From Acetobacter fabarum (lineage in GTDB: Bacteria > Pseudomonadota > Alphaproteobacteria > Acetobacterales > Acetobacteraceae), in NCBI RefSeq assembly GCF_011516925.1, contig NZ_WOTG01000001.1:558001-622000 (forward strand): 64,000 bases of DNA, read 5' to 3'. Each line of letters opens with the position of its first letter. Within the stretch, counting starts at the first letter, position 1. Shown one piece after another: positions 40,274 to 42,314 of this stretch. The notes under the pieces are model-generated. The model searched no databases. It saw only the letters and a program-made list of their open reading frames with translations, and had not been told where the DNA came from. The translations under genes were made by a program, and so were the position numbers.

Positions 40274-42314
40274 CTAGAGGGCGTGATTCATGGTGATCTG
40301 GCCATTTTTAACAATATCCGCCAGTGCCGCAGGCCGCCCGAGCAAAAAACCCTGTGCCTCATCACACCCGGCGGCGTTGAGCATGCTCAACTGGGCTGCG
40401 GTTTCAATCCCCTCTGCCATAACCGGAATATCAAACGCCTTGCCCAGAGCCAGCACAGCCCGCACGACTGCCTGCGTATGGTCGCTGGTTTGCGCGGCCC
40501 CAAAAAACGAACGGTCAATTTTTATGCGGTCAAACGGGAACCTGCGCAGCGTATCGAGCGAGGAATACCCCGTACCAAAATCATCCAGCGCCAGACTGAC
40601 CCCCATATCCTTGATCTGGTGCAGCACCTGCAGGGCACGGGCCTGATCGGCAATAATGGTCGATTCTGTCAGTTCGAGTTCAAGCCTCTGGGGGGGGCAA
40701 CCCGGTTTCTTCCAGAACATTGGCAACAATGCGGGCTATGTTGGAATGGACAAACTGCATGCCTGACAGGTTGACCGCAACCGTATAGGGCTGATGCCAC
40801 CGCACGGCCTCGGCACAAACGGAACGGAGCACCCATTCCCCGATCTGCAGGATCAGATCGCTCTCTTCAGCCAGCGGAATAAAGTCATCGGGCATAATGG
40901 TGCCCCGCGTGGGGTGCTGCCACCGCACCAGTGCCTCGTACCCACGGATTTCTCCCGTAGCGATCACCCTTTGCACCTGATAGCAGATGGTTAGCTGCCC
41001 CGCCTTGACCGCCTGCCGCAGGTCTGCAGAGAGCTTGCGCCGGGTGCGCACTTTTTCGTCCATCGAGGGTTCATAAAAACACGGATGCCGCCCCGGGTCA
41101 GCCTTGGCGCGATACATGGCCAGATCGGCATTGTTGATCAGGGTTTCCTTATCCGCTGCATGGTCGGGCCATATGGCCACCCCCAGACTGGCACCCGGCA
41201 GCACTTCCGATTCCTCAAACCGGATGGGCTTGAACAGCACCTCCTCCAGCCTGCGCAAAAACCCCTTGATCTGCTCGGCCGAGACAACACGGCACAGGGC
41301 CAGAAACTCATCCCCTCCAGTGCGGGCAATAAACTCGCCGCTATGATCATGCAGCAAACCGCGCAACCGCCGCCCCAGAATACGCAGAACTTCATCCCCT
41401 GCCCTGTGGCCACGCAGGTCGTTAATTTCCTTAAACCTGTTCAGGTCGATCCCGATCAGCGCCAGCCTGCCGTTGTTCTCCCGCGCCCAGTCCAGCTCAA
41501 GGTCGAGGCGTTGATGAAAGTTCAGCCGGTTGGGCAGGCCGGTCAACGTGTCGTTCAGGGCCATACGCCGGAGCTTTTCCACCGACTCTGCCCGTGAACT
41601 ATCGTCGATCATGCCGCTGACAAGCCCGCCCCCAAGAATAAGGAAGGACATGATGGCAATGGCTGCGGCCAGCACCAGCGAATCCTCGGAGTGGCCCATG
41701 CTTTCCAAAGCATGCGGCCCCGCCTGCACATGGTAGGCCGCCATACCAATAAAATGGACGGAAAGAACAGCCAGTGCCAGCACACCGGCCATACAGGCAA
41801 TGGCCCGCCGCCCGGGCCTGACCCCCGCACGCACAGCCAGCACACTCAGCACAATGGCGGCCAACACCGAAAGCACAAGGCAGGGCATGTTCCATGTTGT
41901 CTGCCCCTGCACCCGGTAGGCCAGCATGCCGGTATAATGCATGGCAACAATAGCCAGCCCGACAATACCCCCGCCCATTTCCGGCAGAAAGCGGGCAAAC
42001 CGGCAGGTCGCCAGCATAAAGCCAACTGTGCTGCCAAAAACGGCAATCAGCAGAGATATGCTGGTCAGCAAGGGGTCAAACCGTGCGGGCGTATCCCCCG
42101 CATAACCCAGCATGGCCACAAAATGTGTGCACCAGATTGCAACACCACTGGAAAGGGCGGTCAAAAAAAGCCACGCGTACCACTGGTTGTTTTTGGCCCG
42201 TAAAGCATGCCGGAACAAAGAGGCGGTAACTGCGGAGCCAGAGATGCATAGCAAGGCAGCTACACAGACCAGCCCGAGGTTATGCTGGCCAATAATGCAC
42301 CTTACAACCATCAT
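40274..42314 (-). pseudogene. MHYT-GGDEF-EAL cyclic-di-GMP protein, EAL split by a frameshift
   Basis: From the ATG at 42312-42314, seven-helix MHYT sensor motifs appear (THFVAMLGY, MHYTGMLAYR, VHFIGMAAYH). A GGDEF domain with intact NDTLTGLPNRL and RTGGDEFLAL follows, then the start of an EAL domain (YEALVRWQHP, AVNLSGMQFVHSN). The frame stops at 40680 right after a run of eight C. Another frame resumes LELELTESTIIA, LALDDFGTGYSSL, RIKIDRSFFG and VMAEGIE, and ends at 40274. Removing one C joins them into a complete EAL. It is therefore a frameshifted gene, a phase-variable gene or a sequencing error. The GGDEF part alone could still be made. Confidence 0.85.
40690..40697 (-). repeat. homopolymer tract of eight C (coding strand) inside the EAL domain
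   Basis: Eight consecutive G on the plus strand, eight C on the coding strand. Seven would keep the EAL domain in frame as ETGLPPQRLELELTES. Such tracts change length by slippage and can switch genes on and off, and they are also a common source of read errors. Confidence 0.95.

Follow-up and report, generated by a model that had tools for sequence, protein, structure and literature searches.

On its minus strand (42314-40274), the window, which is the whole 64,000-nucleotide stretch of DNA analysed here, carries a gene that by its domain content is a MucR-type membrane enzyme, with an MHYT sensor, a GGDEF cyclase domain and an EAL phosphodiesterase domain. Its reading frame changes within EAL at a run of eight bases, G8 on the forward strand and C8 on the coding strand, built from two adjacent proline codons (Table 1). 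Reading from 42314, the upstream frame stays open until a TGA shortly past the run; the downstream frame extends without interruption from the tract to the stop at 40274-40276 and holds the remainder of EAL. The start chosen for the first part matches that of the five closest Acetobacter orthologues.

Table 1. Features of the interrupted MHYT-GGDEF-EAL gene, with positions in the window.
Feature	Position	Strand	Basis
First part: MHYT, GGDEF and first half of EAL, 544 aa	40680..42314	-	ends at TGA 40680-40682
Best-scoring MHYT stretch, aa 119-175	41790..41960	-	PF03707, whole-protein E 1.5e-30, 2 stretches
GGDEF domain, aa 253-406, motif intact	41097..41558	-	PF00990, E 1e-35
EAL, first half, profile 2-116 of 236	40692..41027	-	PF00563, E 6.8e-26
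C8 run, site of the frame change	40690..40697	-	sequence read directly
EAL, second half, profile 118-236, in the other frame, with DDFGTGYSS and IKIDRSFF	40274..40687	-	PF00563, E 3.5e-40

An earlier note on this DNA had described a c-di-GMP gene split within EAL at eight cytosines, with GGDEF intact, the second half of EAL lost and key residues kept on both sides. The reading frames and the Pfam matches confirm this description: the EAL profile is divided between the two parts, the GGDEF motif stands upstream, and LELELTES, DDFGTGYSS and IKIDRSFF are retained downstream. In the A. lambici orthologue the same profile is matched from 2 to 236, unbroken and in a single frame. The A. lambici protein also matches, by sequence, two known structures: the GGDEF-EAL chain of a 'motility regulator' (4rnh, E 6e-95) and the MucR phosphodiesterase (5m1t, E 5.8e-61). 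NbdA and CdgB are further MucR-type proteins with the MHYT-GGDEF-EAL arrangement. The domain order is that of MucR-type proteins such as P. aeruginosa MucR, whereas the copy in the window is cut within EAL; the same order is described for Salmonella STM3388 and its P. aeruginosa paralogue (PMC10333796). Set against the MucR type, the gene has the MHYT sensor and the intact GGDEF motif and lacks a complete EAL in one frame. Like a pseudogene, it is disrupted in frame relative to intact orthologues; like a contingency locus, it has a mutable run inside the coding sequence.

The second half of the EAL barrel, which carries DDFGTGYSS and IKIDRSFF, is missing from the product, and phosphodiesterase activity should therefore be lost, as far as the anatomy of the gene indicates. 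Efficient translation of the second EAL half on its own would not be expected. The intact GGDEF domain may still make c-di-GMP, or the truncated protein may be unstable; a 'cyclase only' product is possible on this domain layout.

The earlier note had linked the gene to cellulose. This link is unsupported: neither BcsB nor PilZ had a match in the genome, and for each the search control was positive in E. coli. The genome nevertheless holds eight GGDEF genes. The pellicles of many Acetobacter strains are described as heteropolysaccharides, and A. tropicalis is reported to require a pol gene cluster for them (PMC5553594).

The truncation might have been selected and fixed, leaving a membrane diguanylate cyclase in place of a dual enzyme. 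The GGDEF motif is intact and the break falls after it, and E. coli YciR is reported to become a diguanylate cyclase when cut just after GGDEF, a case which resembles the present one in that the EAL side is lost and GGDEF is kept (PMC10333796). In YciR the cut just behind GGDEF is reported to yield a protein that acts as a cyclase, whereas half of EAL is still attached here, and the removal is not clean. Against selection stand also the facts that no second strain displays fixation and that no output is known, BcsB and PilZ being without a match. We regard a selected truncation as quite improbable.

The genus is Acetobacter, and the best five named matches of the gene all come from it: A. lambici (93% identity), A. 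lovaniensis (89%), two strains of A. okinawensis (88%) and A. syzygii (87%). A genus-wide search found a match of at least 60% identity in 8 of 49 genomes, the own genome (G000) included. The others were G011 (A. garciniae), G012, G014 (A. lambici LMG 27439), G015 (A. lovaniensis DSM 4491), G021 (A. okinawensis JCM 25146), G022 (A. okinawensis DsW_060) and G045 (A. syzygii 9H-2). The same two neighbours, a gene that looks LepA-like on inspection and a gene of 217 aa, flank it in six of the seven relatives' stretches compared (L191-L196); in a more distant stretch (L197) the gene itself is the sole match and the shared neighbours were not matched. Across the family, 11 of 299 genomes had an MHYT match; the frame in one of them (G214; L238, C3:49295-50005) is 326 aa, and the open frames in the other ten are 559-796 aa, the own genome's 559 included.

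The alignment of orthologues that the earlier note had called for was carried out. All five closest named orthologues (lambici, lovaniensis, two okinawensis and syzygii) read through the break site in a single frame, and the run itself varies in length and phase or is missing: it is interrupted in A. lambici, absent from A. syzygii and G012, seven long in both A. lovaniensis and A. okinawensis JCM 25146, though in a different phase in the latter, and six long in A. okinawensis DsW_060. The run is therefore not conserved at its site among relatives, as it would be in a contingency locus.

Constraint on the gene was estimated on both sides of the run. Ka/Ks between the own gene and A. lambici is 0.068 upstream and 0.068 downstream. 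Against A. lovaniensis, the nearest of the five by synonymous distance (Ks 0.37 for the upstream part), the values are 0.149 and 0.112, and for lambici-lovaniensis, where both genes are intact, they are 0.131 and 0.109. As to relaxed constraint, the other mark of a pseudogene, Ka/Ks resembles that of intact pairs, and either the break is too recent to have left a trace or the sequence would still be in use. Since downstream Ka/Ks is as low as in intact pairs, the break looks recent relative to the divergence of the species, with decay not yet begun. This agrees with the earlier note, which had called the break recent with little decay.

The gene could work at a low level despite the break if ribosomes shifted frame at the run and made some full-length enzyme. 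In phages and E. coli, +1 shifting is described at proline codons that include CCC (PMC5009743). The relatives show no conserved shift site, and we consider such a rescue barely credible.

Homopolymers are a usual place for assembly and read errors, and the earlier note had named a read error at the run as a rival explanation, under which the gene would be intact in the organism. The genome is a draft assembly in 68 contigs, and the purifying selection still visible behind the break in Ka/Ks is what an intact gene would show. C8 is common in this genome, with 147 overlapping matches. We surveyed 79 distinct C/G runs of at least eight, taken from the window and from the first 100 listed places, on contigs C1-C7, and judged the frame by a codon-usage test of coding on either side. 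Coding was clear on both sides of 39 runs, on one side of 35 and on neither side of 5. The frame was kept at 38 of the 39 runs with clear two-sided coding, lengths 9, 11 and 14 among them, and the sole change was the EAL run. With 39 coding runs among 79, a run of this kind is not exceptional for the genome; the unusual feature is the change of frame, seen at 1 of the 39. The same DNA has 49 runs that are exactly seven long, 26 of them with coding on both sides, and the frame was kept in 26 of 26; among shorter runs, 5 of 293 at length 5 and 2 of 77 at length 6 were flagged as shifts.

Control genes were examined in the same genome. With A. lovaniensis as the reference, 3 of 89 were flagged as broken before filtering. 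All three were among four genes dropped as reference faults, so that 0 of 85 remained broken. Because runs elsewhere are in frame and the controls are unbroken, a systematic homopolymer sequencing error is unlikely, and the earlier note's rival is weakened by the runs of at least seven in the sampled DNA with clear coding on both sides. A single assembly error at the run is possible. Weighed together, a gene left intact in the organism and broken by error in the assembly is rather unlikely.

The earlier note had further suggested that the run may be a reversible switch. Slippage would then toggle the phosphodiesterase half and yield cells with differing c-di-GMP levels. The run does sit inside a catalytic domain, with no decay in the sequence that follows it. 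Rough and smooth colonies of A. pasteurianus are reported to interconvert by spontaneous mutation (PMC5553594). These points are opposed by the run's lack of conservation among relatives and by ordinary genes that accommodate longer runs without a change of frame, for example a purK-like gene with a run of 10 and a gamma-glutamyltransferase-like gene with one of 11 (named by inspection). No sign of a mutator background was found in the own genome, where mutS and mutL are each a single unbroken match, and the other c-di-GMP losses inspected in the own genome and in A. lambici are nonsense mutations. Reversible phase variation is thus unsupported, and we judge it unlikely; one sequence alone cannot separate a reversible state from a recent loss. 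Among the matches listed in the literature, we recognised no report of the gene or of an Acetobacter c-di-GMP homopolymer switch.

A spontaneous polE mutation in A. tropicalis is said to be a frameshift in a cytosine run. A two-component gene of Bordetella pertussis, reportedly bvgS, is likewise said to have been frameshifted in a run of cytosines. That frameshift in a signalling gene was reportedly termed phase variation (Stibitz 1989), whereas no sign of reversal is seen here. The Clostridioides difficile proteins PdcB and PdcC are c-di-GMP phosphodiesterases that are likewise altered by DNA variation; they are reported to switch by inversion of DNA upstream of the genes (PMC9286219), whereas here the coding frame changes and there is no evidence of reversal. 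In the own genome, a C14 run at L134 (1501-1514) and a C11 run at L167 (1521-1531) lie in frame in long coding sequences, the C11 run in the gamma-glutamyltransferase-like gene, and would be better sites at which to seek variation in tract length.

A second interruption lies in G012, where a G8 run within the GGDEF motif breaks the orthologue, which is 85% identical. In that genome 45 runs were surveyed (2 more, at stretch ends, were skipped); 10 were coding on both sides, and among these 10 runs of at least eight the GGDEF break was the sole frame change, which speaks for a switch. It would also fit a broader idea, in which the Acetobacter MHYT-GGDEF-EAL gene is a hot spot: C/G runs in both catalytic domains would lengthen to eight and separately abolish the phosphodiesterase (own species) or the cyclase (G012), and slippage would thereby decide, from cell to cell, which way c-di-GMP turnover runs. 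However, proB-, glyA- and helicase-like genes (named by inspection) are frameshifted in G012 as well, and its break may be an assembly error; we therefore dropped it as proof of a hot spot. We hold the hot-spot idea to be very improbable. The frameshifts in this three-contig assembly, at L348-L351, L191 and L323-L325, suggest residual indel errors.

GGDEF and EAL genes were then catalogued in seven genomes, and the short ones were inspected. The census relies on G000, G014, G022 and G045; G012 was set aside. G021 (A. okinawensis JCM 25146) was excluded because 6 of its 33 controls were broken, an isocitrate-dehydrogenase-like gene (by inspection) included, and its broken genes E and F were left out of the counts. 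For the c-di-GMP genes the verdict came from open-frame length and inspection, those without an orthologue being counted open on length alone, and for the controls it came from a script; the four control genes dropped as reference faults had been flagged in at least three of five tested genomes.

On this basis, 4 of 40 GGDEF genes were broken, compared with 1 of 349 control copies of 91 genes (Fisher p 0.00045; length-weighted p 0.0037; against controls of at least 400 aa, 1/131, p 0.011), a comparison that may overstate how special the c-di-GMP genes are, the controls being conserved syntenic genes. The four broken genes are the EAL-split gene and gene D in the own genome, and genes D and H in A. 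lambici. In the own genome, an in-frame TGA interrupts gene D (L296, C7:96500-107500) at codon 274 of a 962-codon match; in A. lambici (L294, L295) gene D contains two stops in frame and gene H a single nonsense codon. Gene D is open in G015, G022 and G045. When the own genome is left out, the clean losses number two, both in A. lambici.

The outcome depends on which genomes and controls are admitted. A first census that included G012 gave 9 of 62 GGDEF genes against 1 of 165 control copies (p 0.00004) and is not relied on; without G012 it gave 4/52 against 0/132 (p 0.006), and without G000 and G012 2/44 against 0/132 (p 0.061). With the four reference-faulty genes kept and G012 included, 19/456 control copies were flagged, against 9/47 broken c-di-GMP copies (p 0.00045), and with controls of at least 400 aa from the same unfiltered set (15/178 against 9/47) p was 0.037. 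An initial control set had been spoiled by shadow ORFs and was replaced. The frame of gene E (L304, L291) breaks near the same adenine run, at about aa 120-130, in both G012 and G021; these breaks may be artefacts, both assemblies having frame breaks in housekeeping-like genes.

Taken together, the gene is most likely a real and recent frame disruption of an enzyme of known kind. We think it probable that a recent slip truncated the enzyme and that this is one of several c-di-GMP turnover genes lost independently in this Acetobacter clade, not an evolved switch, in a comparison that covers one genome of the own species. Replication slippage in the cytosine run of the two proline codons would have caused the observed change of frame, and the changed frame would leave the 544-aa product without the second half of EAL. 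The loss would then belong with the repeated c-di-GMP gene losses in the clade, for which the census indicates enrichment within the limits given above.

If the run did act as a switch, a mononucleotide run would be setting the balance of a dual c-di-GMP enzyme. If the gene has been lost, as we favour, then in an acetic acid bacterium without detectable BcsB or PilZ it would represent a small and recent case of c-di-GMP genes eroding.
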